Assembly (NCBI GenBank): GCA_029982755.1
Contig: JARRBR010000002.1
Span: forward strand, 1-64,000
Reading direction: 5' to 3'
Source: Rhodocyclaceae bacterium
GTDB taxonomy: Bacteria > Pseudomonadota > Gammaproteobacteria > Burkholderiales > Rhodocyclaceae
DNA: 64,000 bases
The stretch's first letter is position 1. The number at the start of each line of letters is the position of its first letter. The position numbers were made by a program, and so were the translations under genes. Below, piece by piece: positions 2,876-18,493 of the stretch. The notes beneath the pieces were generated by a model. That model saw only the letters and a program-made list of their open reading frames with translations, did no database searches and was not told the origin of the DNA.

Positions 2876-2980
2876 GGCGTTCGGGCGGGGATGGATGAAT
2901 CGCCACAATTGTCGCATCCCGGCCTGCTTGCGGCCATCGCTGCGTGTTTGCGCCGCCACCGCGGTACAATGCGCGCCCCT

Positions 2981-3019
2981 GCCCGGGTGGCGAAACTGGT
3001 AAACGCAGCGGACTTAAAA
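2981..3019 (+). pseudogene. 5' half of tRNA-Leu(UAA) interrupted by element insertion (attL)
   Basis: gcccgggtggcgaaactggtaaacgcagcggacttaaaa matches acceptor, D-arm, 5' anticodon stem and loop, then stops being tRNA; joins perfectly with 13089-13132. Confidence 0.93.
3011..3019. repeat. att core direct repeat (left copy)
   Basis: gacttaaaa, identical to 13080-13088. Confidence 0.85.
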
Positions 3020-3100
3020 ACTTTCGACACCCTATAATCCTCAACAACTTAGCGCGCTGTGCGTAGTGCGGTGCGTAGTTGATCAGAGGAGGGTAGGGTG

Positions 3101-4216
3101 ATGGGCTCGATTGTCGAAAGGAAGCGCACGGACAAGGCCACCGGCAAGACGGTGACGCAGTACCGGGCACACATCCGCCGCGCTGGCTTCGCGAGCCGCT
3201 CGAAGGTTTTCGCGACCAGGCGCGAGGCTCAGGACTGGTTGCGCAACAACGAGACTGACGCCGCGCTCGAGCGGATCGCGCGACCGCGAGGCAAGACGCT
3301 AGCGGATCTGATCGAAGACTTCGTGCATGCAGGCGTCTGCAAGTACGCATCCCCCGCCCATCTGGAGTTCTGGCGCGACGAGCTTGGCGCTCGCCCGATT
3401 GCCGAGATCACCCACGGCGATATCAACGGCTGTGTGCTGACGCTCCGCACCAGGCGCGCGCATCGCCGCACCCCGGAAGGCATCAAGGCCACCGACAAGG
3501 CATTGACCCCGGCGACGATCAATCGCTATCTGGCCGCTCTGTCCGCCGTCCTCGGTTTCGCCCTGCAACATGGCGTGATCGAAAGCCACCCGATGAAGGG
3601 CGGCAAGGTCAAACGCCTGAAGGAAGGCCCGGGCCGGCAACGCATCCTCACGCCCGACGAAGAATCCCGCCTTCTGGCCGCTGCTGCCGCTGCCCGATGG
3701 GATGGTATGCATCTGTTCGTGCTGATGCTGCTGACCACGGCCGCGCGCAAGTCCGAAGTGCTGAATCTGCGCTGGCGAGACGTCGACCTGGCGCGAGGCT
3801 TTGCCATCCTCGGCAAGACGAAGAACGGGAGCCCGCGCGCCCTGCCGCTGGTGGCCGAAGTCCGAGCCAAGCTGGCGGACGCCGCCAAGGTGCGCCCGCT
3901 CGGCAGCGACTTCGTTTTCTACGACCCCAAGCACCCCGAGCGACCGAAGGACGTCGACACGGTCTGGCGCTTTGTGCGCGCTCGCGCCGGTCTCGACGAT
4001 ACCAACGACCCGCTGCACAAGGTTGTCATGCACACCACCCGCCACACTGGCGTAACGAAGGTGATCCGCAACGGCGCCAACCTGGCACAGGCCGCGCTGA
4101 TCAGCGGACACAAGACGCTCGCCATGCTAAAGCGCTACGAGCACCTGGCCGCAGACGACGTGCTCGAGCTGGCCGAGAAGGCGCTAGGCGACCCGGGCAA
4201 GAAGAACACCGCATGA
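3101..4216 (+). CDS. int: site-specific tyrosine recombinase/integrase
   Basis: TTAARKSEVLNLRWRDV (Arg box I), HTTRHTGVTKVIRNGANLAQAALISGHKTLAMLKRYEHL (HxxR...Y box II). Confidence 0.95.
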   Translation: MGSIVERKRTDKATGKTVTQYRAHIRRAGFASRSKVFATRREAQDWLRNNETDAALERIARPRGKTLADLIEDFVHAGVCKYASPAHLEFWRDELGARPIAEITHGDINGCVLTLRTRRAHRRTPEGIKATDKALTPATINRYLAALSAVLGFALQHGVIESHPMKGGKVKRLKEGPGRQRILTPDEESRLLAAAAAARWDGMHLFVLMLLTTAARKSEVLNLRWRDVDLARGFAILGKTKNGSPRALPLVAEVRAKLADAAKVRPLGSDFVFYDPKHPERPKDVDTVWRFVRARAGLDDTNDPLHKVVMHTTRHTGVTKVIRNGANLAQAALISGHKTLAMLKRYEHLAADDVLELAEKALGDPGKKNTA

Positions 4217-4310
4217 CCGCCGCCTGACGGACTCAGGCAAAAGCGAGCCGACCGAGTGCGGGAACACCTGGCCGGCTCTGACCACCACCCGATCCTAGGG
4301 AGATCGAATC

Positions 4311-4553
4311 ATGGCTATCGAGCATCTTACCAAGCACCACCCCGAACCGGACGCGCTGCAATCCGTCCTTGAGATAGACGCATGCATTGCACAGGCCCGC
4401 GCCATCGTTCGCCTGATGGGCGCGACCGGCCCGGATGAGGCCATGTCCCCGGACACCCGGCAAAACGCCGCCTGGGCTGTTTCGGACCTGCTGGCGCGTA
4501 TCGACAAGGCAACCGGCAAACTTGGCCGGCTGGCCGCTGCTCGGGAGGCGTGA
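4311..4553 (+). CDS. hypothetical protein (80 aa)
   Basis: ORF in a co-directional series, close spacing to the RadC-like ORF; no family recognised. Confidence 0.6.
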   Translation: MAIEHLTKHHPEPDALQSVLEIDACIAQARAIVRLMGATGPDEAMSPDTRQNAAWAVSDLLARIDKATGKLGRLAAAREA

Positions 4554-4555
4554 CC

Positions 4556-5032
4556 ATGAACACACTCGACCTCGCCCGCCGCGACCGCGAAGACCGCACC
4601 ATTGCGCGCGCCCTGCGCATCCTCGAGCGCCGCATGAAGTACGACGCCAAGACGACACCCCTCGTGAGTCCTGACCTTGCCCGGGACTACCTGCGCCTGC
4701 GCCTCGACGGTCTCGACCGGGAGGAGTTCTGGTGCGTCTGGCTGAATGCGGCGCACCAAGTCATTGAGGCTGAATGCATGTCGGTTGGTTCGCTGACGCA
4801 GACCCAAGTCTATTCGCGCGAGATCGTGCGCCGCGCGCTGGAGCACAACGCCGCCGCGGTGATCTTGGCGCACAACCACCCGAGCGGCAGCGCCGAGCCG
4901 AGCGACGGAGACCGGAGGCTTACCGTCGCGCTGCAATCCGCGCTCGCGCTGGTGGACGTGAACGTGCTGGATCACTTCGTAATCGGCGCCGATCCGCGCC
5001 CTGTGTCCTTTGCCGAGCTTGGCCTTCTGTGA
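4556..5032 (+). CDS. RadC-like JAB domain protein
   Basis: VSPDLARDYLRLRLDGLDREEFWCVWLNAAHQVIEAE...AAAVILAHNHPSGSAEPSDGD (HxHPSG...D metal-binding motif). Confidence 0.92.
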   Translation: MNTLDLARRDREDRTIARALRILERRMKYDAKTTPLVSPDLARDYLRLRLDGLDREEFWCVWLNAAHQVIEAECMSVGSLTQTQVYSREIVRRALEHNAAAVILAHNHPSGSAEPSDGDRRLTVALQSALALVDVNVLDHFVIGADPRPVSFAELGLL

Positions 5033-5034
5033 GG

Positions 5035-5274
5035 ATGACCACCATGACCACCGACACCGTTACTCCCGAAGCGCTCGCCGCCCTGCAAATCGATCTTGAG
5101 CGAAGCCGCTCCGACTTCAACATGCTGGCGCTCAAGGCCGGCGAGCTGGCAAGCGCCTTCGGCATCCTGCGAATGGCCATCGAAAACGAACCCGGCCCCG
5201 CCGCCGACCTCGCGCGCATTCTGGAGGAATACACCTGCGATCTGGTCGACGCAGCCCGCAAGCGAGCCGCCTGA
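5035..5274 (+). CDS. hypothetical protein (~79 aa)
   Basis: Short ORF MTTMTTDTVTPEALAALQIDLERSRSDF... in gene series. Confidence 0.6.
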   Translation: MTTMTTDTVTPEALAALQIDLERSRSDFNMLALKAGELASAFGILRMAIENEPGPAADLARILEEYTCDLVDAARKRAA

Positions 5275-5395
5275 CCCCCCCGCCCGGAGTGATCCGGGCA
5301 CCCTCACGCCGCGCCTAGGTCGGCCAACCGAAAACGGGGACACCCTGCCCCGCTGGCGCGGCACCTATCACCAGGGTTCGCCGCATGGGTGGGCG

Positions 5396-6013
5396 ATGTC
5401 CGAATTCTTCCTGATGCCTGACCGCAGGCGCCGCCTGTTGAGCGTGCTACGCAAGCACGACGCCGACCGCGCGGAATACTTCCTGAGCATGTGCGAGCGG
5501 GAGATTGTTTCCTGGCTGAAGACCTGGCCGAACATGCCACCGCCCGCCCGGGACATTCCGTCGCAACTCGAGCACGTGCGCCGCAAAGCATTCGAGCTGT
5601 TCGAGGCGGTCAACGGTCTAGACCACCAGGCAGGATGGATGCTGGCGCACTGGCTGCTATCCCACGAGGACGAAGGCAACTCCCAAGGCGTAATGCCCGC
5701 TGACGTATGGCACGCGCGTGATGCGCTGAAGTTCGATCTATTGCGCCTGGCGCGCGCCGCGCAAGACTGCCACGACCCGCACGAAGGTCCCGCGCCCCGC
5801 CGACCAGATCAAGACCTTTCCGACCGCCTCGCGCGCGCCTACACGGACATTTTCCGGGAACTGCCATCCGTGAACATGGAGGACGGCGTGTTCGCCGCGT
5901 TCTGCGAGGAACTTGCAAACGACATGCCCGAGGGCGTGACCTTCACCGTATCGCGCACCACCCTGGAGCGGTCCCGCCTGCGCTGCGCGTACCTGTTGAA
6001 CGATTCACCTTAG
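5396..6013 (+). CDS. hypothetical protein (205 aa)
   Basis: ORF MSEFFLMPDRRRRLLSVLRKHDADR...; no family recognised. Confidence 0.65.
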   Translation: MSEFFLMPDRRRRLLSVLRKHDADRAEYFLSMCEREIVSWLKTWPNMPPPARDIPSQLEHVRRKAFELFEAVNGLDHQAGWMLAHWLLSHEDEGNSQGVMPADVWHARDALKFDLLRLARAAQDCHDPHEGPAPRRPDQDLSDRLARAYTDIFRELPSVNMEDGVFAAFCEELANDMPEGVTFTVSRTTLERSRLRCAYLLNDSP

Positions 6014-6123
6014 TGAACTCGACCGTGTAAGTTTTCCCCGCAAATCGCCCGAAAAGTTGCACGAGGCTTTTCCGGCTCCCATCTGACCATGTGCGCACCA
6101 CAACCGACTAAAGGACGTGCGCA

Positions 6124-6360
6124 ATGGAAGCCCACAACCCCGCAAGCTTGCCGCTTGATGACCTGCACACGGTCGAAGAACTGGCGAGCAAGTACCCCCG
6201 CATCCTCTCGACGTACACCCTGCGTTGGCAACTGCGCGACCGGGAAAAAAACGGACTCGCGCCGGCCTGCGTTCGCGTCGGCAAAAAGCTGCTGATCAGC
6301 AAGACCCGTTACGAACAATGGCTGGCCGTCCGCGCCGGCAACGCCGCCCGCGCGGCATAA
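6124..6360 (+). CDS. excisionase/AlpA-like small DNA-binding protein (78 aa)
   Basis: LHTVEELASKYPRILSTYTLRWQLRDREKNGLAPACVRVGKKLLISKTRYEQWLA resembles a winged-helix MerR/excisionase-type fold. Confidence 0.65.
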   Translation: MEAHNPASLPLDDLHTVEELASKYPRILSTYTLRWQLRDREKNGLAPACVRVGKKLLISKTRYEQWLAVRAGNAARAA

Positions 6361-6375
6361 CGGGAGGCGCCGACC

Positions 6376-6573
6376 ATGACCGCAAAAGAAAACGCCCCGG
6401 CGATGACCGAGGCGCAAGGCGATACCTACGCCGCCGATTCTACCGCACCCGCCCCCGCGCGCGGCATGTACAACCCCCTGACCTGGCGCCCCGAGAAGCC
6501 CGCCCGATTCCGTGGCAAGGGCAAGCTCCGCACCCGCGCCGATGCCATCGCCCGCAAGCGGGGTGAGGCATGA
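6376..6573 (+). CDS. hypothetical protein (65 aa)
   Basis: Short ORF overlapping the next start by 4 bp (ATGA). Confidence 0.5.
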   Translation: MTAKENAPAMTEAQGDTYAADSTAPAPARGMYNPLTWRPEKPARFRGKGKLRTRADAIARKRGEA

Positions 6574-7142
6574 CGACTTATGCCGTTTTTCCTTCTGGCG
6601 TCGCAGAGTGCTCGCGCTGCGGATGTGACGTGATAGCCGACAACGTGGGCGCCTTTCGCCGCGTGCGCGACCTAGCGCCGAACGCTACGGTCTGCATCGT
6701 GATGTGCGCGACGTGCGCAGATGCCGAAGACGAGCGCAACGAGGCCGCGCAAGCGCCGCCCGCATCGTTGACCCTGACCCGCCGCGGCATCGGCTCGCAT
6801 CCCCGCCGGCATCCTGCGTACGGTAAGGCCCTGGCCGAGAACCCGCCGCCGCCTGACGAACCGCTTACCGTCGCTGTCGGCTGGCAGTACGCAAAGACCT
6901 TCCCGGCGCCGCTGCTGGTCGTGCTGCCCGAGGACAACCCCGTCCGCCTGCGCTTCGACGTGGCAGCCGGCCGGCGCGTGCGTGTGGCGCATCCAGACGA
7001 CGCCGACCCCGAGCGCCTGCTGAGGCTGGCACAGGCGCTTATCGACTACGGCGCACTGTACGTCGACCTGATCGAGCACCCGCCCCGCCCTGGCGCAGCC
7101 AAGCGCGAGCGCCTGCGTGTGCTGGTGGAGGCACCCCGATGA
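6570..7142 (+). CDS. hypothetical protein with Cys pairs (CSRCGCD, CATCAD)
   Basis: 190-aa ORF, ATGA overlap on both sides. Confidence 0.65.
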   Translation: MTTYAVFPSGVAECSRCGCDVIADNVGAFRRVRDLAPNATVCIVMCATCADAEDERNEAAQAPPASLTLTRRGIGSHPRRHPAYGKALAENPPPPDEPLTVAVGWQYAKTFPAPLLVVLPEDNPVRLRFDVAAGRRVRVAHPDDADPERLLRLAQALIDYGALYVDLIEHPPRPGAAKRERLRVLVEAPR

Positions 7143-8701
7143 GTTCAAAGACTCACCTGCACGTCATCGCCGCCACCAAGACACAGCCGCCGCCCCCGTC
7201 CGATCTGCCGGTGATCAAGATCGAAGACGGCAGCCTGCCCGACAACGTGCGCGCGATTGCTGCCGCGCTCGCAAGTGCGCCCGATCTGTTTACGTTCGGG
7301 GAACGGCTGGTGCGCCTGTATTCGGGCGCCAATGGTGCCGCCGTCGTGCCGGTAGAGTCGGCGCATGTTATGGAACTGGTCGGCCTGTATGCGCGCCTGA
7401 CGAAGTTCGACGGCCGAAGCGGAGCCGACCGCCAAGCCGACTGTCCGCGCCGGCTGGCAGACGCTTACATAGCCCGTCGGCATCACCCCGAACACAAGCA
7501 GTTGCATGGCGTGGTGGAGGCACCGACGATCACCGCAGACGGCCGCCTCCTTGATCGACCAGGCTACGACCCAGAGTCCGGCCTGTTCGTGGCCTGCACC
7601 CCATCCGACCTGGCGAACTACCCCGGCATCAACCCGCGCCCGGATGCCGACGACGCAAAAGCCGCGATTGAGCTACTTCTCGACGCACTCGATACCTGGC
7701 CCTTCGTGGAGGCCGGCGACCGATCCGCCGCACTCGCTGCGCTGGTCGGAACCATCGTCCGCCGCTCGATACCGGCCGCACCCATGACCGGCATCACTGC
7801 TACCGCAGCCGGCACCGGGAAAAGCCTGCTTGCCGACTGGATCAGCATCATTGCGACCGGCTCGCGCCCCGCAGTCATGAGCTTGGGCCGCAACGATGAC
7901 GAGAACGAAAAACGCCTTGCGGGCGCCTACCTGGCTGGCGATCCCGTCATCGCGCTCGACAACATCAGCTTTCCGCTTGGCTTCGATCTGTTGTGCCAAG
8001 TCTGCACCCAACCCCGCGCCCGCTTCCGGCCGCTCGGTGGATCTGCACTCGTGACCGTGCCGACGAATGCGCAACTGATCGCCACCGGCAACGCCTTGAC
8101 GATCACCGGAGACCTGAAGCGCCGCGCCCTTCTGATTCGCCTCGACGCCGGCATGGAGCGCCCCGAGCTGCGCCGCTTCGACCGTGACGCGCTCGAATAC
8201 GCACGCGCCGAACGTGGGCGCCTTATCGCCGCCGCGCTCACGATCCCGCTGGCGTACATCGCAGCAGGCTCGCCGCCCGTTGATCTGCCTCCAGTAGGAT
8301 CGTTCACCGAATGGGACCGCCTTGTCCGCCGCCCGCTGCGCTGGCTCGGGTTGCCCGATCCCCTGGCCCCTGCTGAGACATTGCGCGAATTCGATCCCGA
8401 GCTAGAGGCGTCCCGCCTGCTGCTATCGGCATGGTTCGACGCATTCAACACCAAGCCGGTAGGCGCTGCGGAAGTGGTGGCCGCTGCGCTGTCGGTTGGC
8501 GAGGCGACTGGAAACTACCGATACCCCGATCTGCGCGAGGCGTTGCAGTTGATCTGCCACGAGAAGATCACCGCGCGCCGGCTTGGTGGATGGCTGCGCG
8601 CAAACCGCGACCGGATCGTCGACGGACTGCGCGCAGTACAGGCCGGAACAGACGGTCACTCGAAAACCGGCCTGTGGTCGGTTCGACCGGAATGCGGGTA
8701 A
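7139..8701 (+). CDS. P-loop ATPase, replicative primase/helicase-associated type
   Basis: ATAAGTGKSLLADWISIIATG (Walker A), DPVIALDNIS (Walker B-like), VTVPTNAQLIATGNALTITGDLKRRALLIRLD (sensor/Arg-finger-like). Confidence 0.8.
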   Translation: MSSKTHLHVIAATKTQPPPPSDLPVIKIEDGSLPDNVRAIAAALASAPDLFTFGERLVRLYSGANGAAVVPVESAHVMELVGLYARLTKFDGRSGADRQADCPRRLADAYIARRHHPEHKQLHGVVEAPTITADGRLLDRPGYDPESGLFVACTPSDLANYPGINPRPDADDAKAAIELLLDALDTWPFVEAGDRSAALAALVGTIVRRSIPAAPMTGITATAAGTGKSLLADWISIIATGSRPAVMSLGRNDDENEKRLAGAYLAGDPVIALDNISFPLGFDLLCQVCTQPRARFRPLGGSALVTVPTNAQLIATGNALTITGDLKRRALLIRLDAGMERPELRRFDRDALEYARAERGRLIAAALTIPLAYIAAGSPPVDLPPVGSFTEWDRLVRRPLRWLGLPDPLAPAETLREFDPELEASRLLLSAWFDAFNTKPVGAAEVVAAALSVGEATGNYRYPDLREALQLICHEKITARRLGGWLRANRDRIVDGLRAVQAGTDGHSKTGLWSVRPECG

Positions 8702-8704
8702 AGC

Positions 8705-8807
8705 GGTATTTGCGGGATGTGTCTCCGCTCACGTGGGAAAAGTGTCAGTGACATATTTAGGGAATGAGTGGGAACACACCCCGCAAACACCGCAAATACC
8801 GCAACAC
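8705..8807. other. candidate iteron cluster / replication origin
   Basis: Tandem 9-mers ccgcaaaca-ccgcaaata-ccgcaacac at 8781-8807 and an inverted copy ggtatttgcgg at 8705-8715, in the gap after the ATPase gene. Confidence 0.5.
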
Positions 8808-8916
8808 CCGCGCGGAACTTGGGTCCTCCTGTGGGCAAACCACAGAGGGTACGCAGAGTCGCGGTTCCTGTGTAGTTAGGGGCTATTACAAGACTTTAAA
8901 GAAATAGGATTTCGCT

Positions 8917-9447
8917 ATGAATCAGACCGAAATGGCACATCTAGTAGGCGTGTCGCCCATGACCGTTTCCAACTGGGTCCGCGAGGGCATGCCATGCCGG
9001 CACCCTGGCGGACGGGGGCGCGCGTCGGATATCGACCTTGCCACCGCCCTCGAATGGCTGGCAAAGCGCGGCATCCGGCCGAACGTGGCGCGAGATCACG
9101 CGCTGGTGATCCCGACCGACCAGGCGCCGGAAGACGACGACAGCGCCGGCGAGGATGGCGCCGACTACAAGGCCAGCCGCGCCAAGCGCGAGCACTACGC
9201 CGCCGCACGCGAGGAAATGCGCTACCGGCAAGAGGCCGGCGAGCTGATGGTGGCTGCCGAGGTGGAAACCGCCGTAGCGGCCGCCTGCACCACCATCCGC
9301 ACCGCCCTAGAGGCGCTGCCCGACGCGCTCGCGCCACGCCTAGCCGCGATCACGGATGAAAATGAGTGTCGGAGCCTGCTTGCGGCCGAGATCGAGCACA
9401 CGCTCGAACAGTTGAGCGCCGATTTGTTGCGCGCACCCAAAGCATGA
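8917..9447 (+). CDS. phage terminase small subunit (Nu1-like)
   Basis: MNQTEMAHLVGVSPMTVSNWVREGMPCRHPGGRGRASDIDLATALEWLAKRG HTH followed by the typical helical C-terminal region. Confidence 0.85.
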   Translation: MNQTEMAHLVGVSPMTVSNWVREGMPCRHPGGRGRASDIDLATALEWLAKRGIRPNVARDHALVIPTDQAPEDDDSAGEDGADYKASRAKREHYAAAREEMRYRQEAGELMVAAEVETAVAAACTTIRTALEALPDALAPRLAAITDENECRSLLAAEIEHTLEQLSADLLRAPKA

Positions 9448-9824
9448 GCACCGAACTTGCCCGCCGCGCTGCCGCTGGCGACACCAGCCCCGAGGTCTCC
9501 CGCTGGTGGTGCGAGGCCATGCGCCGACACCTCGACGGTGACGACCTCGACCAGGCGCTAAGGCTCGACCGAGCATCGCGCCTGCGCGAGCGCAACCGGG
9601 CGTTGAAGGACGCCGCCGCCCTGCTGGCCGCCGACGATGGCCCTTGGCGCTGTGCCTGCCGCCTGGAGGCCGCGATTCGGCGCCACGAGGCCCGCATTGC
9701 GCCGCTTCTGGCGCGCGACCCGGCAACGACCCTAGCGCCGATAGACGAGGCGCTGCGCCGCGCCTTCGACACCCGGCAGCGCGTACCGACCACGGCCCGC
9801 AATCTGTTCGATCTGATCCGCTGA
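9444..9824 (+). CDS. hypothetical protein (126 aa)
   Basis: ATGA overlap with the small terminase gene. Confidence 0.65.
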   Translation: MSTELARRAAAGDTSPEVSRWWCEAMRRHLDGDDLDQALRLDRASRLRERNRALKDAAALLAADDGPWRCACRLEAAIRRHEARIAPLLARDPATTLAPIDEALRRAFDTRQRVPTTARNLFDLIR

Positions 9825-9900
9825 CGCAACACTGATGCAATAGGCCGAAAGCATCAGCAGGAAGTGGGCAGCATTGGACCGTACCCAATCGGAGACCCCC

Positions 9901-10920
9901 ATGCTGAACCACAATCCCCGCGACATCCTCGCCGCTGGCGCCGACGCCATCGCCGCCGCCTTCAACGTCCCGAACCGCACCCCGCACCCGCTTGTTGATG
10001 AACTGGCCAGCGCGCCGCTGTCGCGCCTGGCCTATGCCGCTGGCCTCGCCATCCGGCCGCAGCAGTCGCACGAAAACGACCGCGCGGTTATGGCTCGCGG
10101 AATGACCTCATCCGACTACGCCGGCCTGCTCGCTTCCGCAAGCACCACGCTTGCAAATCGCCGCTTCGCCGCCGTGGCCGAACATCGCGCGTTCTGCGCG
10201 ACCGTCGAATGCCGCGACTTCAAGCCGATGGAGATCGCCACCGCCGACGTCGACGGCGAGCTGCCCGCCGTAGGCGAGCTGCAAGAAGTCGCCTACGGTC
10301 ACGTGCTGGTTGGCAATGGCGCTACGGCGCAACTGCGCGCCTTCGCCCGTGTGCTGCGCGCCTCGCGCACGCTGATTGTCAATGACGCCGCCGGCATGCT
10401 GGCCGCTGCCGTCGAAAACCTGGGCACCGCCGCTGCGCGCACCGAGGCGCGCGAGGTGTACAGCGTTTTCGAGGCTGATGCGCCGATGGAAGATGGCGAG
10501 CTTCCGTTCCATGCCGACCACGGCAACATCGTCGCAAGTGCGCTCGATGCGACCAGTCTGGGCGCCGCAATGGCCGCGCTGCGCACGATGACGTTGATCG
10601 GTGGCAATCAAGCAGACCTGAGCGCCGCGCACCTTGTTGTTGCTGCCGGCCTCGAGCTGGCCGCCCGCAAGCTGGTGCACGAATCCGGGCTGGCAATCAC
10701 CGTGACCGCATCCGGCCGCCTGGCTACCGGCCGATGGTATCTGCTGCCGAGCCCCGAGGCCGCGCCGACCGTTGCCGTTCTGCGGCTGAAGGGCAGTACC
10801 CAGCCGGTATTGATCGAACCGTGGCAGGAGGAATTCAGCTTCGATGGCGCGGTTATGCGCGGTTCATGCGATACCGGCGCGGTGCTGGTCGCGCGGACCC
10901 TGATCCGTGGGGGAGCGTGA
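9901..10920 (+). CDS. HK97-fold phage major capsid protein
   Basis: HENDRAVMARGMTSSDYAGLLAS...LQEVAYGHVLVGNGATAQLRAFARVLRASRTLIVNDAAGML...GRWYLLPSPEAAPTVAVLRLKGSTQPVLIEPWQEEFSFDGAVMRGSCDTGAVLVARTLIRGG resembles the capsid part of protease-MCP fusion proteins. Confidence 0.85.
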   Translation: MLNHNPRDILAAGADAIAAAFNVPNRTPHPLVDELASAPLSRLAYAAGLAIRPQQSHENDRAVMARGMTSSDYAGLLASASTTLANRRFAAVAEHRAFCATVECRDFKPMEIATADVDGELPAVGELQEVAYGHVLVGNGATAQLRAFARVLRASRTLIVNDAAGMLAAAVENLGTAAARTEAREVYSVFEADAPMEDGELPFHADHGNIVASALDATSLGAAMAALRTMTLIGGNQADLSAAHLVVAAGLELAARKLVHESGLAITVTASGRLATGRWYLLPSPEAAPTVAVLRLKGSTQPVLIEPWQEEFSFDGAVMRGSCDTGAVLVARTLIRGGA

Positions 10921-11387
10921 TGTTCGAGAAATCCGCCGCCGACCGCTATCTGGCCGCCGTCAAGGTGCTGACGAAAGCCGAGGCGGCACACCGCAAGAAC
11001 CTCGACCTGCTCTATCAGGCGATGGACGCAAAGCAAGCGCACCAGGTCACGCCCCTGCGCCGGGACTGCGAACGGTCGGAGCGCGCATTGCAGGACGCAT
11101 TGCAGGCCGCGCACGATGCCCACCGCGCGTACTGGACGCAGCGCCGGGACGCCATACGCGACGAACTCGACCGCGCCGCACTGGTGATTGCCGAATTCGA
11201 CGCCTTTGCGCTGCTCGCTGGTGACCGGGCGCCACACCCGGCGCTGCGGTATCTGCAAGGCCGCGCCCTGGAAGGCCGCACCGCCGCGAACCTGCTCGAC
11301 CAGGACGTGCTGGCGACGCACGGCGTACCACAAGAGGCGCCCGATTCGGCGCTGCTGGAAGACGAGCGCGGCGCTTGGCGACCCTGA
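10920..11387 (+). CDS. hypothetical coiled-coil-type protein (155 aa)
   Basis: Start overlaps the MCP stop (TGATG); long helical, charged sequence. Confidence 0.65.
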   Translation: MFEKSAADRYLAAVKVLTKAEAAHRKNLDLLYQAMDAKQAHQVTPLRRDCERSERALQDALQAAHDAHRAYWTQRRDAIRDELDRAALVIAEFDAFALLAGDRAPHPALRYLQGRALEGRTAANLLDQDVLATHGVPQEAPDSALLEDERGAWRP

Positions 11388-11519
11388 ACACCCTGCGGGG
11401 CGTGAAAAGCCTAGCGGTAGGCACCGGGCGCGGCTGACAGGCTGAAACAGCGCGCAAGGCAGACCACCGGACGCCGATTGGAAACCGGCTGCAAGGTCTG
11501 CCACCCACCGAGACCACCT

Positions 11520-12044
11520 ATGACCTACACCCACCCGCCGCGTGCCGCCCTGGGCCGTATTCATCCGCTGGCCGACGTGCCGGCCGCGATCAAGGGCGCA
11601 TCGTTGGAGCGCACCGCGCACCACGAGGCCGGGCACGTCGTGCTGATGGAGTGGGCCGGACTGACCCCCACGAAGGCGAGTGCATCCGCTGGCAACGGCC
11701 TAGCCGAATGGGATTTGGCCGAGATCGGCGCCGACGATCCGCCCACCGACCATGACCGCCCGCTGGCCGCTGCACAGGCCGCAGCCGTGATGCACGCCGG
11801 CATCTGCGCAGAATTGATCTACGTCGGGCACCGATGGCAGGGCGTGACCGTCCGCATGCGCTCGAAGGATTGGCAGCTCGCGTGCATGCTGCTTGCGCAG
11901 CACTTCGGCCCCGGTCTGGCAGGGCACGGATTCTCACAGCGCACAGCCCTTGCGGTGCTGACGCAGCACTGGCCGCGCGTACAACAGATCGCCGCCCACC
12001 TGATCGAGCATGGCACCTGGAGACCTGAAAATGAGCAGAGCTGA
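11520..12044 (+). CDS. HEAGH-motif protein, M41/FtsH peptidase-domain-like
   Basis: LERTAHHEAGHVVLMEWAGLTP...AAAQAAAVMHAGICAELIYVG resembles the FtsH HEAGH and downstream AAE-type segment. Confidence 0.65.
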   Translation: MTYTHPPRAALGRIHPLADVPAAIKGASLERTAHHEAGHVVLMEWAGLTPTKASASAGNGLAEWDLAEIGADDPPTDHDRPLAAAQAAAVMHAGICAELIYVGHRWQGVTVRMRSKDWQLACMLLAQHFGPGLAGHGFSQRTALAVLTQHWPRVQQIAAHLIEHGTWRPENEQS

Positions 12045-12219
12045 ACGCATCATCGACGAGTGCAAGCGCCGGGAGCTGACAGTAGAGCGCACCGGCAATG
12101 TATGGCGCATCTTCGGGCGTGGCGTGGATATCCGCGTCCTGCACTTGGAACACGTCGACCTGAACGAACTGAACCCGCTGCACCCTGGCCCGCGCACCGC
12201 CTGGCGCGAAGCACGCTGA
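12031..12219 (+). CDS. hypothetical protein (62 aa)
   Basis: MSRAERIIDECKRRELTVERTGNVWRIFGRGVDIRVLHLEHVDLNELNPLHP; overlaps adjacent genes at start and stop. Confidence 0.6.
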   Translation: MSRAERIIDECKRRELTVERTGNVWRIFGRGVDIRVLHLEHVDLNELNPLHPGPRTAWREAR

Positions 12220-12518
12220 TGCGCTGCTGCGCCTGCTGCCGAATGCCCGCCCCGCTGGCTGTCGTGCATCCCGGCGAGATCCACGGCATCGGCGTGACCT
12301 TCGGCCTCTGCGCCCGCTGCGAGCTGGCAAACACCAGGCTTCCGGCCGGTACGCGGCAGAAGCGCCTCAACAGCGCCGCCGACCTGGCCGCACGCGACAC
12401 CAGCGGCCGATTCTGGACCGCTAGATTCCCCGACCAAGACGCCGCCGCACTGGCCGCACACATGCTCGCGCACCCCGACACCGCACCCGATACCGCCGCC
12501 GCCTTGGGCTGGCGGTAG
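12219..12518 (+). CDS. hypothetical protein with Cys clusters (99 aa)
   Basis: MRCCACCRMPAPLAVVHPGEIHGIGVTFGLCARC; overlaps previous stop (TGATG). Confidence 0.55.
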   Translation: MRCCACCRMPAPLAVVHPGEIHGIGVTFGLCARCELANTRLPAGTRQKRLNSAADLAARDTSGRFWTARFPDQDAAALAAHMLAHPDTAPDTAAALGWR

Positions 12519-12571
12519 TGTGCTCAAGACTGAGCGCGCCCCAACCCCCATTGGGGGATGAACCGTGGACA

Positions 12572-12601
12572 GGTGACGCCCTCGCGCGCGCGGGCTTCTC
12601 C
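12572..12601 (+). repeat. 30-bp direct repeat, copy 1
   Basis: ggtgacgccctcgcgcgcgcgggcttctcc, identical to 12633-12662. Confidence 0.95.
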
Positions 12602-12632
12602 GTTCAAGTGGGAAAAATTTCCCGCTTGATCT

Positions 12633-12662
12633 GGTGACGCCCTCGCGCGCGCGGGCTTCTCC
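12633..12662 (+). repeat. 30-bp direct repeat, copy 2
   Basis: Identical to 12572-12601, 61-bp period. Confidence 0.95.
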
Positions 12663-12820
12663 CCCAATGGGGGAAAATCCCACCGAGGCCGACGCCATCG
12701 CGCGCGTGGAGCCGAGCCGTAGCCTTTTCCTCAGACTGAGGACAAGCAACCGCCGCCACGCGCTGGAGCCTTTCCCTGCATTGCAGGTAAGGCCCGACCT
12801 CGCGCGGAGTTCTATCAAAC

Positions 12821-12904
12821 TGGTGCCCGGGACGGGACTCGAACCCGTAAGCCGTAGGCGATGGATTTTAAGTCCACTGCGGTTACCAATTTCGCCACCC
12901 GGGC
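12821..12904 (-). tRNA. complete tRNA-Leu (UAA) carried by the element
   Basis: Reverse complement gcccgggtggcgaaattggtaaccgcagtggacttaaaatccatcgcctacggcttacgggttcgagtcccgtcccgggcacca; full cloverleaf with variable arm and CCA. Confidence 0.96.
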
Positions 12905-12923
12905 AGGGCGCGCATTGTACCAA

Positions 12924-12953
12924 GTGCATAACTTCGTGCGTAAATCGTGCGTA
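12924..12953. repeat. candidate integrase arm-type sites (right end)
   Basis: gtgcata 12924, gtgcgta 12936, gtgcgta 12947 (11-12 bp spacing); matching gtgcgta copies at 3059 and 3071 on the left end. Confidence 0.55.
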
Positions 12954-13079
12954 ATCGACAGCCGCAAAGCACCTCAAATCATCACATCGAACCGCACAAG
13001 GACGAAAAGCACCACGATCAAGGACCAGTAAAACTAAGTGTTATAGCGTGATCCTATGCGCTTCGTTGTGTTCGATATT

Positions 13080-13132
13080 GACTTAAAATCCGCCGCCTCA
13101 AGGCTTACGGGTTCGACCCCCGTCCCGGGCAC
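13080..13132 (+). pseudogene. 3' half of the interrupted tRNA-Leu(UAA) (attR)
   Basis: gacttaaaatccgccgcctcaaggcttacgggttcgacccccgtcccgggcacca; anticodon stem gcgga/tccgc and acceptor gcccggg/cccgggc are only completed by 2981-3019. Confidence 0.93.
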
Positions 13133-13189
13133 CACCTTCCGCGCGTCATGTCCGGCGCGGCACAGCGGGCATCGACCGACGGGGCGCGC

Positions 13190-13774
13190 TCACTCGAGCC
13201 GCTGCGATTCCGCGATCAGCGCACCGAGCAGCTGGAACGCCTTCTCCTCGGAGAGCTTGTCGGCGGCGGAAAGGTTGAGGATGGTCTTGGCCAGCGCCTC
13301 GGCAATCGGGCCGCAGCTCCCCGCGGTCTTGTCGAAGAGCCGGTTGGACGTCGTTCGAGTGGCCGCGTCCTGAATGCTGACGTCCGGACCGATGTCCGGC
13401 TGGGAACGCTCCGGCGGCGGCGTCCGAGCGGGAGCGGCGGCACCGTCGGCACGCAGGCTTCGCCATGCCGGTTCGGGGACGTCGCCCTCGCTATGGCGCT
13501 GATCCAGCCAGCCGCGCACCAGACCCAGTGCGTCCTCGATGGCGAAGGCGAAAGGGTCCGAAACCGGCTTGCGTGCCGACGTCATCAGGCTGATGCGGCT
13601 GCCCGAGGTACCGGCCAGCTGGGCGAGGCGGTTCTTGGTTCCGCGTGCGCCGGTCAGCATGATCAGGTTCAGGCGCCGGTTCTCCAGGGTCTGCTTGCGA
13701 TCGCTCGCCGGCATCCATTCCGCGCGCTGGGCATCGGTCGTGGCCGCTACCGGGTCTTCGACGATATTGGTCAT
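13190..13774 (-). CDS. hypothetical protein (194 aa)
   Basis: MTNIVEDPVAATTDAQRAEWMPASDRKQTLENRRLNLIMLTGARGTKNRLAQLAGTSGSRISLMTS...; no firm family. Confidence 0.65.
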   Translation of the reverse strand: MTNIVEDPVAATTDAQRAEWMPASDRKQTLENRRLNLIMLTGARGTKNRLAQLAGTSGSRISLMTSARKPVSDPFAFAIEDALGLVRGWLDQRHSEGDVPEPAWRSLRADGAAAPARTPPPERSQPDIGPDVSIQDAATRTTSNRLFDKTAGSCGPIAEALAKTILNLSAADKLSEEKAFQLLGALIAESQRLE

Positions 13775-13978
13775 GGAAATCGTGGGCCTGGACGCCCGTC
13801 TTGACGATAGGTGCCGTCGCACTTCAGTGAGGTTCGTCGACGAGCCGCAGGCCGTTCCGGCGCGGGTTTGTCGACCCGGCATCGAGTCTGCATCGCGGCC
13901 TGCACGAGGTCAAGGTTTCGCGGCGTTGCGTCAAGTTACCGAAGATTTACATGACCGACGAGCCTGATGGGATCTTCG

Positions 13979-14752
13979 TCATCGGTTCGCATCGTCGAGG
14001 TCGAACTCGTGATCTAGAACTACCGAGAGGTGGCGCAGCTCGTCGGTGGTGGCGGCAACTTCGGCACGGATGGCGGGGATGTCCCGGCGATCCAGGGCGC
14101 GTTGCAGCCGTCCGAGGCACTCGTCGAGCCTGTCGGCGCCGATCATGGCTGCGGTACCGGTCAGGGTCTGGCACCACGCCTGCAGGTCGCGGTGATCGAG
14201 CGTGCGCGAGGCCAGTTCGAGCCGGGCGATGCGGTCGGGGGCGAGCTCGTAGAACTGGCGCGCGATCTCGCGCTGCAATTGCCAGTCGGGACCGACGAAA
14301 GCCTCGAAGGAGGGGGCGTCGAAGCCCGACGGCGCAGGCTTGGGCGGTGTGGCGCCGGCATCCGGAAGGATCTGCCGGATGAGCTTCTTCAGCAGCGCGG
14401 GGCGTAAGGGCTTGGTGAACACATGGACCTGCGGCAGATTCAGCAGCGGGCGCATGCTCTCGTGGCTGGCCGCACTGACGACCAGGATCGGCACCTCGAC
14501 CAGGCCGTACTTGCGCTTGACGATGTCGAGGAATTCGAAACCATCGAAGCCCGGCATGTGCAGGTCGAGGATGACGAGGTCGGGCCAGTTCTGCGCCAGG
14601 TAGAGCAGGGCATCGTAGCCGTTCTCCGCGCTCGCGATGCTGATGCCGGGCACCGCCGAGAGCAGCGTCTCGCGGTAGAAGGTCGCGTAGAGCGGATCGT
14701 CCTCGACCACGAGGGCCCGCGGTTGGTCGCTTGCGGTGCTCGGCCTGTCCAT
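13979..14752 (-). CDS. response regulator with C-terminal Hpt-like domain
   Basis: ALVVEDDPLYATFYRETLL...DLVILDLHMPGFDGFEFL...FTKPLRP receiver motifs. Confidence 0.88.
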   Translation of the reverse strand: MDRPSTASDQPRALVVEDDPLYATFYRETLLSAVPGISIASAENGYDALLYLAQNWPDLVILDLHMPGFDGFEFLDIVKRKYGLVEVPILVVSAASHESMRPLLNLPQVHVFTKPLRPALLKKLIRQILPDAGATPPKPAPSGFDAPSFEAFVGPDWQLQREIARQFYELAPDRIARLELASRTLDHRDLQAWCQTLTGTAAMIGADRLDECLGRLQRALDRRDIPAIRAEVAATTDELRHLSVVLDHEFDLDDANR

Positions 14753-14770
14753 GCTTGCTGGATACCTGGT

Positions 14771-15532
14771 CTAGTGGGAGGGGCCGACGGCTGCGGTGCC
14801 GCCGTCGAGTTGATCCGCAGTCGTACGCTTGTCGATCCGCTTTCGCAGCGCCACGAGCTGGGGAAATTGCGTGACCGTGACGTCCACGATGGCGGGGTCG
14901 AAGTGCGATCCGCGGCCAGCCTTGATCATGGACAGCACCTCATCCTCGCCGAGTGCCGGGCGGTAGCAGCGGTCCATCATCAGCGCATCGAGGAAATCCG
15001 CGACCGCCACGATGCGGGCGCACAGCGGAATCTCCAGCTCGAGGACGCCGGAGGGATAGCCGCTGCCGTTCCAGCGCTCATGGTGGCCCAGCGCGATCTC
15101 GGCGGCCATCTGCAGCACCGGAACGTCGGTGCCGCCGAGGATCTGGGCGCCGATCAGCGAGTGGGTTTCCATGATCCTGCGCTCGTCCGTGGTCAGCGGA
15201 CCGGGCTTCTTGAGGATGTGGTCGGGAATGCCGATCTTGCTGACGTCGTGCATCGGCGCCGCCTGGACGATCAGTTCGCACCACTCGGCAGCTTGCCCGA
15301 GCGCCTGCGCGAGCACGCCGGACAGCGCGCCGATGCGCTCGATGTGGGCGCCCGTATCCCCGTCCTTGTACTCGGCAGCGAGCGCCAGCTTCGACAGGGT
15401 GATCCGGTGGGCATGTGCGAGCCGCCGGTAGGCCTGCTCCCGCTGCTTGCGCAGCTGGTGCATGTCCTGCACGTAGCGCAGCAGCTGGGACTGGTCGAGA
15501 TCGCTGGCCGGGGATGGGGAAGGGGCTTCCAT
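14771..15532 (-). CDS. HD-GYP domain protein (cyclic-di-GMP phosphodiesterase-type)
   Basis: GDTGAHIERIG...APMHDVSKIGIPDHILKKPGPLT...LGHHERWNGSGYP. Confidence 0.92.
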   Translation of the reverse strand: MEAPSPSPASDLDQSQLLRYVQDMHQLRKQREQAYRRLAHAHRITLSKLALAAEYKDGDTGAHIERIGALSGVLAQALGQAAEWCELIVQAAPMHDVSKIGIPDHILKKPGPLTTDERRIMETHSLIGAQILGGTDVPVLQMAAEIALGHHERWNGSGYPSGVLELEIPLCARIVAVADFLDALMMDRCYRPALGEDEVLSMIKAGRGSHFDPAIVDVTVTQFPQLVALRKRIDKRTTADQLDGGTAAVGPSH

Positions 15533-15538
15533 GCGGGA

Positions 15539-18493
15539 TCAGGTGGACGGGGTGATCTGGGTATCGTGATGCGCGGTCCGCATGTCTTCGACGTGAGCGG
15601 GGGCGAGCGGGAACCATAGGGTAACGCAGGTGCCGACGTCCGGGACGCTTTCGAGGGTCACGCTGCCGCCGTGGACCGTCATGATCTCCTTGACCAGCGG
15701 CAGGCCAAGGCCGGTGCCCGGGATGTGTCCGGAGCGATCGCTGCGGTAGAAGCGTTCGAAGGCGTGGCTGCAGTCCTCGGCATTCATGCCGAGGCCGTGG
15801 TCGCGCACCGCCACACCGATGAAGCCCAGCCCCTCCGGGTGTTCGGTGTGGACGGCGAGTTCGATGTCGCCCCCGCCCGGCGAGAACTTGCAGGCGTTGG
15901 AGAGCAGGTTGAGCAGCGCCTGCTGGAACTTCGCCCGGTCCATGCGGATCGTCGGCAGCTCCGGCGGCAGTTCGAGCACCAGCCGGTGGGTGTCGTCGGG
16001 GATCAGGAAGGCGGCAAGCGCTTCATCGATCGCCTGGCGCAGCGGCACGTCGTCGAAGCGGAAGCTCTCCGCGCGCCGTGCCTCGATCCGGGCGAGGTCG
16101 AGCAGATCGGTCAGCAGGTCGGTGAGCCGGTGCGCCTGGCGATTGATGGTGGCGAGCAGTTCCCGCGTCTTGTCCTCGTCGTACCGGCGCATCATCAGCA
16201 GCTCGGAGAAGCCCATGATGCTGGACATCGGGGTGCGCAGTTCGTGGGCCGCGGTGTTCAGAAACTCGCTCTTCATGCGGTCGAGCTCCGCTTCGCGGGT
16301 GACGTCGCGGTAATAGAGCACCAGCGAGGCCGAGCTCGCCCCGCAATAGCGGTAGGTCTGGCGCAGCATGCAGGGCTTGGGCCGGACGATCCGGAGGAGG
16401 CTGTCCTGGGCGAGATCGTCCCCGCTCCTGGCCGCATCGGGCGCAGGGTCGGGAAGGCGGAGCAAACCATGGCCGTTCTCGAGCAGGCCGCTGACATGCG
16501 CGCCGAATTCGGCGATCGTGATGCCGGTGAGTGCGCCGATGCTGGTGCCGAAAATGCGTTCGGCGGCGGCGTTCACGTAGCTGAGCCGCCCGTCCTTGTC
16601 GAAGCAGACCAGCGGGTCGGGGCTGAGGGTGAACACCGCATCGAAGCGTGACAGCCATTCGAGCAGCAGATCTTCGGTCCGACGCCGCTCGGTGATGTCG
16701 CTCTGCACGCCGACGTAGTGCGTCACCTCGCCGCTGAGCGGATTGACCAGAGGCGAGATGGACAGCTCGTTCCAGTACAGGGCGCCGTCCTTGCGGTAGT
16801 TGCGCAGCGTCACCGCACAGGCCTGGCGTGCGGCCACCGCCTCGTCCAGCTGTGCGAGCTCGGGCTGGTCGCGGTCGTCGCGATGGAGCAGACGCGGATT
16901 CCTTCCGGCCACCTCGGCGAAGCTGTAACCGGTGATGTCCTCGAAGGCGCGGTTGACGTAGATGATCGGATTGTCCGGCTGCTGCAGGTCGGTGATGACG
17001 ATGCCGTTCTGCACGGCCTGCAGCGCCCGGTCGCGCAGGGCGATGGCCAGACTGGTTTCATGGCGCCGGGTGACGTCTGTGACCAGAACGATGGCGTGCG
17101 GCACCTGCTCGGCGTCGTCGACCGTCATGGGCGAGATCGAGATCTCGATGAACGCTTCGCTGTCGTCGGCGCGCCGATGCGTCAGCAGGATCGGTTCGCC
17201 GAAGCCGCGTTCCGCTTCGATAGCCGTCCCGGCGCTGCCCGGAAAGACTTCCGCGGGCCACAGGGCACCGACCACCTCGGCGGCGGCGAAGCCGGTGATG
17301 TGAAGGAAGGCGGAATTGGCGTAATGCACGCGCTGGCCGTCATCGACCTGGCGCAGGATCAACACCCCGCTTTCCGTCGACGCCAGCGCCTGTTCCTTGA
17401 GCATGCGCTCGCGTTCCGAGTGGGCGACCTCGCTGGTACGGGCCTCGAGCGTGGCAGCGAGCTGGCGCTGGGTGTCGCGGAGTGCGGCGATCATGCGATA
17501 GACGGTGGCGGTGAGCAGCCGGAAGCGGTCCCCGTCGCCGGGGATCTCGGTGACCGCCGGCAGCGCGTCGAGTTCGCCCGCGGCGACCCGGGCTGCGGTG
17601 TGCTCGAGCTCGCTGAGCGGCTCGGCGATGATCAGCGCGAGGCGACGGCTCTGCCACGCCACCAGGGCGAAGATGCCGACGCCGATCGCGAGGAAGGCGG
17701 CCATCAGCCAGTAGATCGGGCGATTGGCGAGCTGGCGGTCCATCGCGACTTCGATGGCGAGCGGCAGATTCGAGCCGGCGACGGCGGACAGGGGGGCCAG
17801 ATGGGCGAGTTCGTCGTGTTCGCCGGCGGCGCCGCTTCCTGCGCCGGCGCTCGCGTCGGTCCGTTTCAGGCGCACGGCGTAGCGTCCATCGACCGCCTTC
17901 GTCGCTGCCGCGAACACGCCCTCGAGATCGAGGTCGGCCACGAGCGCGCCTTCGAAACTGCCGGTCGGAAGAAAGGCGATGGGTGCGGCGAGGCTGAGAT
18001 GCAGCGCGTGATCCGGGCTGGCCGGCGTGAGCGTGACGTGACCCTCCTCGATGATTCGCTGCAGCTGTTGGCCTTGTTCGGCGCGCCAGCGTTGTTCCCG
18101 GTCGCTGCCCTGCTCGAGCAGCTGCCCGCGGAAATCGGTCAGCACCAGCGTGGTGATGGCGGGGGAGGCGTCACAGATATCCTGCAGGATCGGCTGGATG
18201 TATCGACTGCGCTCACCCGAGTCGGACAGTGCGTTGCTGAAGATCGTCTGCTTCGAGGCCGAAGCGATCTTGTCGACGAGTGCATCGAGCCGGGTCTCGA
18301 AGGCGAAGCGGACCACGGTGGCCGATTCGCGCAGATCGGCCTCGATCTTGCCGGTCATCAGCGAATGCAGGGCCGCGTAGGACAGGATCAGCACCGGCAC
18401 CATGACACCCGCCGTCAGCAGTGCCGACAGCATGGTGATGCGGGCCGCCAGGCCGGCGCGTCTCCAGCGCCTGGAGCGGGTGAATGGGATCAA
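15539..18493 (-). CDS. PAS-domain sensor histidine kinase
   Basis: Multiple PAS segments (NSAFLHITGF, NRAFEDITGYSFAEV), FLNTAAHELRTPMSSIMGFSELL H-box, GTGLGLPLVKEIMTVHGG G-box. Start uncertain; TTG overlapping the upstream stop assumed. Confidence 0.88.
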   Translation of the reverse strand: MIPFTRSRRWRRAGLAARITMLSALLTAGVMVPVLILSYAALHSLMTGKIEADLRESATVVRFAFETRLDALVDKIASASKQTIFSNALSDSGERSRYIQPILQDICDASPAITTLVLTDFRGQLLEQGSDREQRWRAEQGQQLQRIIEEGHVTLTPASPDHALHLSLAAPIAFLPTGSFEGALVADLDLEGVFAAATKAVDGRYAVRLKRTDASAGAGSGAAGEHDELAHLAPLSAVAGSNLPLAIEVAMDRQLANRPIYWLMAAFLAIGVGIFALVAWQSRRLALIIAEPLSELEHTAARVAAGELDALPAVTEIPGDGDRFRLLTATVYRMIAALRDTQRQLAATLEARTSEVAHSERERMLKEQALASTESGVLILRQVDDGQRVHYANSAFLHITGFAAAEVVGALWPAEVFPGSAGTAIEAERGFGEPILLTHRRADDSEAFIEISISPMTVDDAEQVPHAIVLVTDVTRRHETSLAIALRDRALQAVQNGIVITDLQQPDNPIIYVNRAFEDITGYSFAEVAGRNPRLLHRDDRDQPELAQLDEAVAARQACAVTLRNYRKDGALYWNELSISPLVNPLSGEVTHYVGVQSDITERRRTEDLLLEWLSRFDAVFTLSPDPLVCFDKDGRLSYVNAAAERIFGTSIGALTGITIAEFGAHVSGLLENGHGLLRLPDPAPDAARSGDDLAQDSLLRIVRPKPCMLRQTYRYCGASSASLVLYYRDVTREAELDRMKSEFLNTAAHELRTPMSSIMGFSELLMMRRYDEDKTRELLATINRQAHRLTDLLTDLLDLARIEARRAESFRFDDVPLRQAIDEALAAFLIPDDTHRLVLELPPELPTIRMDRAKFQQALLNLLSNACKFSPGGGDIELAVHTEHPEGLGFIGVAVRDHGLGMNAEDCSHAFERFYRSDRSGHIPGTGLGLPLVKEIMTVHGGSVTLESVPDVGTCVTLWFPLAPAHVEDMRTAHHDTQITPST

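Follow-up and report, generated by a model that had tools for sequence, protein, structure and literature searches.

The integrated element at positions 3011-13079 of the window, the 64,000-nucleotide stretch of Rhodocyclaceae DNA that was analysed, appears to be a functional phage satellite of a poorly known type and not a broken virus, since its small set of genes is found again in other bacteria. Its distinguishing feature is a cassette of five genes that encode, in order, a small terminase subunit (TerS), a protein of unknown function (u126), a lone HK97-fold major capsid protein (MCP), a helical protein (h155) and an M41/FtsH-like peptidase. The reading favoured here, with a probability of roughly 0.6, is an integrated satellite that replicates itself, tags its DNA through its own TerS, builds or co-builds its own shell, and borrows a large terminase (TerL), portal and tail; no helper was found and no experiment has been performed. 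Such a satellite had been proposed in an earlier note made from the sequence letters, and the proposal is supported by the conserved cassette, purifying selection, exact element ends and lack of TerL and portal. The M41-like gene, the int-alpA RNA, the replacement of the tRNA and the tape-measure form of the element had not been noticed there. Function remains an inference, both for TerS redirecting packaging and for the MCP making the satellite's own shell, and neither the size of that shell nor the use of helper parts has been shown.

Element boundaries and gene complement

The exact ends of the element were obtained from an empty site in a genome of the same genus (G407), where the joined flanks find an intact match (92% identity over 475 bases) that contains a complete tRNA-Leu(UAA). 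They enclose 10,069 bp, in agreement with the length of about 10 kb given in the earlier note. The insertion point is the anticodon loop of the host tRNA-Leu(UAA), and the host gene is split; the tRNA-Leu site named earlier thus stands, refined to a split anticodon loop with a complete copy of the gene on the element itself. The features of the element are as follows.

3011..3019, plus strand: left att core GACTTAAAA, the end of the 5' half of the host tRNA-Leu(UAA), a half that starts at about 2981 (sequence; empty site in G407)
3098..4216, plus strand: tyrosine integrase, 372 aa (Pfam Phage_integrase 1.1e-22; phrog_1 7.1e-52)
4311..4553, plus strand: unknown protein, 80 aa (ORF; no family)
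4550..5032, plus strand: RadC-like JAB-domain protein (Pfam RadC 8.6e-41)
5044..5274, plus strand: unknown protein, 76 aa (ORF; weak relative in G416)
5308..5376, plus strand: int-alpA RNA (Rfam RF02996, 65.6 bits against a gathering threshold of 35.8)
5396..6013, plus strand: unknown protein, 205 aa (ORF; no family)
6124..6360, plus strand: AlpA-like small DNA-binding protein, putative excisionase or regulator (weak HTH match; position beside the int-alpA RNA)
6376..6573, plus strand: unknown protein, 65 aa (ORF; no family)
6570..7142, plus strand: zinc-finger-like protein of unknown function, 190 aa (ORF; 61% identical in G416)
7139..8701, plus strand: replication ATPase, C-terminal part of the DNA polymerase/primase family (phrog_29234 8.2e-113; phrog_19930 DNA polymerase/primase 2.4e-23)
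8694..8811, no strand: 9-bp iterons (ACCGCAAAT-like) in inverted clusters, putative origin of replication (repeats)
8837..8916, plus strand: conserved noncoding block of about 80 nt ahead of terS, candidate TerS/cos site or late promoter (conserved with G409)
8917..9447, plus strand: TerS, Nu1-type, 176 aa (phrog_57 terminase small subunit 1.3e-37; Pfam Nu1 1.5e-7)
9444..9824, plus strand: u126, capsid-cassette protein of unknown function (no family)
9901..10920, plus strand: MCP, HK97 fold, without protease half (Pfam Phage_capsid_4 1.8e-24; phrog_4523 2.4e-36)
10920..11387, plus strand: h155, long helical-hairpin protein, possibly scaffold-like (AlphaFold; conserved)
11520..12044, plus strand: M41/FtsH-like HEAGH metallopeptidase domain, 174 aa (PDB profile matches, HExxH pattern)
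12031..12219, plus strand: unknown protein, 62 aa (ORF; relative in G416)
12219..12518, plus strand: right-end protein of 99 aa with Cys pairs, conserved (identity 72-73% in G409 and G401, 70% in G416)
12821..12904, minus strand: complete tRNA-Leu(UAA) carried by the element (ARAGORN, Rfam tRNA)
13080..13134, plus strand: right att core and 3' half of the host tRNA-Leu(UAA)

The tRNA-Leu(UAA) carried by the element has a 16-nt upstream sequence identical to that of the host gene and is the sole intact copy found in the assembly (86% complete), in which the next-best match is a tRNA-Leu with the anticodon CAA. It substitutes for the split host gene, and the host is expected to rely on the element for this tRNA. 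By splitting and replacing an essential tRNA gene, such elements offer an example of a host that depends on a satellite. The element of G416 (locus L173, about 5830-17680, tRNA at 6006-6089) likewise interrupts its host tRNA-Leu(UAA) in the anticodon loop and leaves the gene unrestored; in both elements, a complete but diverged tRNA-Leu(UAA) lies in the opposite orientation, preceded by an upstream region of its own. Two near-identical 45-nt repeats (GGTGACGCCCTCGCGCGCGCGGGCTTCTCC...), to which no role was assigned, lie ahead of the tRNA at 12572-12677.

All 16 ORFs are on the plus strand, and the recognised products are the tyrosine integrase, the RadC-like protein, the replication ATPase, the Nu1-type TerS, the MCP and the M41/FtsH-like HEAGH protein. 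Among the mobility and replication genes read earlier from the letters, the integrase and replication ATPase are borne out by protein families, and the excisionase-like gene has only weak support of this kind. Its product is 85% identical in G416, its best PHROG HTH match has E=0.24, and the weak assignment as AlpA rests on its position and the adjacent int-alpA RNA. This RNA, located between int and the AlpA-like gene and also present in L173 and L131, owes its identity to the Rfam model, single-sequence folding of the region being uninformative (z=0.1). Within the group, the regulatory RNA near int/alpA and the replication genes is either int-alpA RNA or a P4-type C4 antisense RNA (sites at 5308-5376 in the window, 4299-4384 in L033 and 14183-14267 in L025), with C4 RNA occurring in the sister elements G409 and L025; this alternation hints that int-alpA RNA acts as an immunity or activation switch. 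In addition, a sub-threshold match to the SymR/PtaRNA1 antisense RNAs (39.6 bits versus 61) lies on the minus strand at 4242-4316, opposite the start of the ORF at 4311-4553, which is possibly an antisense-controlled small gene. The element of G409 has another iteron sequence at the equivalent place; different iterons in each element would fit origins that are each recognised by the replication protein of the same element, although this is an inference. Promoter and terminator scans performed no better on the element than on shuffled sequences.

The capsid cassette and its relatives

The earlier note had described an operon of four genes, namely a Nu1-like TerS (8917-9447), an unknown 126-aa protein, an MCP (9901-10920) and a 155-aa helical protein (10920-11387), all of which were recovered at these places, and the cassette extends to a fifth gene, the M41/FtsH-like one at 11520-12044. 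The close coupling described for the operon also holds, as TerS and u126 overlap in ATGA style, MCP and h155 share one base, and 76 nt separate u126 from MCP. In 8 of the 9 elements of the main lone-MCP branch, u126 is encoded directly upstream of the lone MCP. Across 400 genomes of the order it gave three strong matches, each adjoining a lone MCP, and one further weak match (G219, E=3.6e-4) that has no neighbouring MCP; no relative was found in IMG/VR, and it was not detected in the viral contig L118, which has an MCP. For h155, AlphaFold predicts helices at residues 6-36 and 40-99 with a mean pLDDT of 75. The PDB profile matches of the M41-like protein all belong to the FtsH/YME1 family (E from 0.0014 down to 0.64), Pfam M41 is matched weakly in relatives (3.5e-4), and the HExxH pattern is invariant. 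None of u126, h155 and the M41-like peptidase had a match in 50,697 phage records. The M41-like peptidase was considered as a replacement capsid protease; this proposal is weak because the gene is absent from the MCP-bearing elements L131 and L132 and occurs in L117 and L119, which have no MCP in the sequence examined.

The identification of the third gene as an HK97-like MCP, first made from the letters, is confirmed at high confidence by structure prediction (mean pLDDT 92.8, pTM 0.87, 65-sequence alignment), with Foldseek returning HK97 Head II, phiCD508, the SaPI1 capsid and encapsulin shells at E values of about 1e-8 to 1e-7 and modest TM-scores of 0.4-0.5. The protein aligns only to C-terminal profile positions (298-633 of 644 in phrog_4523; 277-621 of 634 in NCBIfam NF045541), indicating that the missing part is the protease half of these fusion families. 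In 78 of 80 IMG/VR loci with this MCP family, the frame is open over 627-828 aa; in the remaining two it is truncated by a contig end. In a phylum-wide sample, the strongest family matches are likewise long fusion frames, and the few short frames lie mostly at contig ends. A lone MCP is thus the exception in phages; the protease-MCP fusions of complete phages are diverged, with 20-30% identity to the window MCP.

Pfam and PHROGs searches of the 16 ORFs revealed no TerL, portal or structural tail gene, and custom profiles for TerL, portal and ClpP protease, which detect 70, 75 and 78 of 89 phage loci, respectively, found nothing in the element. The absence of TerL and portal reported earlier is therefore upheld by all three approaches, and that of tail genes by Pfam and PHROGs. 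The discovery of TerL or portal among the unknown ORFs, set beforehand as an outcome that would refute the satellite, did not occur; nor was the MCP fold rejected, another such outcome. A hidden TerL or portal is rejected on ORF size together with these searches. PHROGs detected no head-tail connector, although the small unknown ORFs could still conceal one; a ClpP/S14 search found no head maturation protease, and the M41-like peptidase that is present has no assigned role. In related lone-MCP elements, the TerL, portal and ClpP profiles likewise found nothing credible. A weak TerL-profile match in the G167 element (13757-14059, 101 aa, E=0.0014) was judged to be a zinc-finger match. The one exception among the elements searched is L117, a viral contig of 13,293 bp that has TerL, a tape-measure gene, the M41-like gene, a primase and a TerS-like gene, with no MCP in the sequence examined.

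The window is assigned to a genome of the genus Thauera, as its nearest MCP relative in a named collection is that of Thauera propionica (77% identity), whose element (G401) is located at a tRNA-Val. The element of G409, at a tRNA-Arg, is closer in MCP (82%), TerS (93%) and u126 (94%), whereas those of G324 and G167, both at a tRNA-Ser, have MCPs of 36-39% identity. The order u126-MCP-h155-M41-like gene is kept in all four, and integrases differ among the cassette-bearing elements wherever the integrase end is in the available sequence. The nearest MCP homologues (77-82% identity within the genus and 36-38% in other families) are without exception lone MCPs carried by small elements, so that a further potential refutation, homologues occurring only in complete prophages, also fails to hold. 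At a greater distance, G663, G699 and the viral contig L116 likewise have a lone MCP accompanied by u126. In the MCP tree, nine lone-MCP elements lie on one side of a branch, apart from the fusion phages; however, the grouping of all nine together has a support of only 71, from a quick method and with several long branches. A second lone-MCP branch (L025 of G270, 9250-10902, and L026 of G056, 8839-10493), with a coiled-coil gene just before the MCP and a phrog_57 TerS, is nested among the fusion phages, suggesting that protease-less satellite MCPs probably arose at least twice. The MCP is under purifying selection (dN 0.13-0.16, dS 0.6-0.7, dN/dS about 0.2; dN 0.13 and dS 0.60 between window and G409), and constraint is likewise seen in TerS, u126 and h155.

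The DNA match to G409 spans 8837-12028 (85%), from 80 bases before terS, thus including the noncoding block and nothing further upstream, to the inside of the M41-like gene, whereas the integration parts (2977-4319, 6085-7120 and 12821-13134) match the G416 element at 70-82% nucleotide identity, which indicates that the capsid cassette moves as a unit. The G416 element has the same split tRNA-Leu, its own tRNA-Leu and an integrase 90% identical to that of the window element, and in place of the capsid cassette it encodes TerS and a 1,029-aa tape-measure protein, with no MCP, TerL or portal. It is thus the tail-module counterpart of the window satellite. G167 and G663 have genes for an MCP as well as for a tape-measure protein.

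Competing readings and a possible mode of action

The main rival to an own shell is interference, in which the MCP would co-assemble with or poison the helper shell, by resizing or in a dominant-negative manner, and the satellite would travel in mixed or helper-built heads. This reading is unlikely yet has to be taken seriously, given that redirection of helper capsids is the usual strategy of known satellites (P4 Sid, SaPI CpmB, PLE TcaP; PMC12409344, PMC10945586) and that an MCP lacking protease half and portal cannot alone make a packaging-competent head. However, the protein is full-length, strongly constrained and confidently folded, its 20-30% identity to the phage MCPs of the family makes co-assembly with a helper MCP unlikely, and the cassette stays with its own partners u126 and h155. 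That divergence, together with the tight link to the satellite-only u126, h155 and M41-like gene, leads us to favour an own shell, which remains unproven.

The other readings survive less well. An encapsulin-like compartment unrelated to DNA transfer would account for the encapsulins returned by Foldseek and for an element without portal and TerL, but it is improbable, as the MCP is coupled to a packaging TerS in one cassette, its sequence relatives are phage MCPs, and elements of one kind carry MCP and tape-measure modules either alternately or together. Even less credence can be given to a divergent capsid-forming PICI (cf-PICI) with TerL, portal and protease beyond detection: cf-PICIs do make their own capsids (PMC10690885) and several ORFs lack a known family, but these unassigned ORFs encode only 62-205 aa, when a TerL would need about 450-700 aa and a portal about 450-530 aa, and the custom profiles find neither in MCP-bearing elements. 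A decayed prophage retaining terS and a capsid gene by chance is hardly tenable despite the abundance of MCP homologues in complete phages, because the cassette and its order recur at different tRNA genes and in different host families, selection is purifying, integrase and ATPase are intact, lone MCPs cluster apart from fusion MCPs, and exact attachment sites and an empty site exist; the element does not show the marks of a defective prophage, whose genes would be broken, whose selection would be relaxed and whose relatives would all be in complete phages.

If the element is a satellite with its own shell, the growth of a cos-type helper phage in the cell would be the trigger, upon which Int and AlpA would excise the element and replication would proceed from its iterons. 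The Nu1-type TerS would then bind a site on the satellite DNA and deliver it to a GpA-type large terminase of the helper, while the MCP would form a shell, probably a smaller one, on the helper portal, assisted in assembly by the satellite-only proteins u126 and h155, and helper tails would complete the particle. The element's tRNA-Leu(UAA) would keep the host alive after the splitting of its gene. Over its C-terminal 103 aa, TerS is 44% identical to its counterpart in a complete prophage of G417, a same-genus genome; this prophage also encodes TerL, portal, protease and a separate lambda gpE-like MCP. On sequence similarity alone, this suggests the kind of motor that may be borrowed, not which phage is the helper. 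As the prophage MCP is gpE-like and not of the window MCP family, a helper with a portal fitting the satellite shell is a guess. Neither a GpA terminase nor a PF05136 portal was found in the host assembly (86% complete), and no GpA terminase in eight other carrier genomes tested, the single match being G417, the prophage genome.

A broader scenario, offered only tentatively, is that such satellites swap parts, combining an interchangeable backbone (int, int-alpA or C4 RNA, AlpA, replicase and TerS) with cassettes replacing only those virion parts that set contents or dimensions, whereas motor, portal and tail are borrowed. TerS would determine which DNA is packaged, the MCP the head size and the tape-measure protein the tail length; the window element would be the MCP version, G416 the tape-measure version, and G167 and G663 would have both.

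Comparison with known satellites

The window MCP belongs to the same family as that of phages with a ClpP-like protease/MCP fusion (phrog_4523, NF045541), but is without the protease half. Tycheposons of marine cyanobacteria are tRNA-linked elements with a tyrosine recombinase, some of which are satellite-like, with packaging or capsid genes, and carry tRNAs. Since some of them have such genes and tRNAs, and tycheposon and VEIME data were not compared, priority cannot be claimed for the present element.

With Gram-negative PICIs (int, alpA, primase/rep, terS), the element shares the backbone, the size of about 10 kb, the tRNA site with direct repeats and the Nu1-type TerS, and thereby meets their criteria for integrase, AlpA (weakly), replication gene and TerS. 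However, these PICIs are described as redirecting helper capsids and having no MCP, a criterion that the capsid cassette violates. P4-like satellites resemble it in AlpA and the replication ATPase/primase, and through the C4 RNA of the sister elements G409 and L025. The window element, however, has int-alpA RNA instead of C4 and its own TerS and MCP; no family match to Sid, Psu or Delta was found in it, so the P4-like criteria are not met. Nor are those of PICMI, which are about 6-7 kb long with int-alpA-prim, are located at fis and lack a capsid gene, in contrast to 10 kb, tRNA-Leu and an MCP here.

cf-PICIs carry MCP, maturation protease, portal, connectors, TerL, TerS and HNH (PMC10690885), in accordance with the fuller head module ascribed to them in the earlier note. 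The element is similar to them as an integrated satellite of about 10-14 kb with its own MCP and TerS that would use helper tails, but only MCP and TerS are recognisable. It meets the requirement for an own MCP and fails the cf-PICI definition, which demands TerL, portal/connectors and head maturation protease. The Streptomyces satellites MulchRoom and MiniFlayer also have their own capsid genes; unlike the window element, they carry TerL, portal, scaffold and adapter and are without replication genes (PMC10690885).

Present satellite finders would file this group as PICI or miss it, whereas a protease-less MCP right behind u126 provides a search signature. Satellites described so far either remodel the helper shell or carry a whole head module, and a type with TerS and MCP fits neither. 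If true, an element with only TerS and MCP, or only TerS and a tape measure, would be an intermediate between the two and would offer a direct test of how freely the portals, motors and tails of one phage accept a foreign shell.
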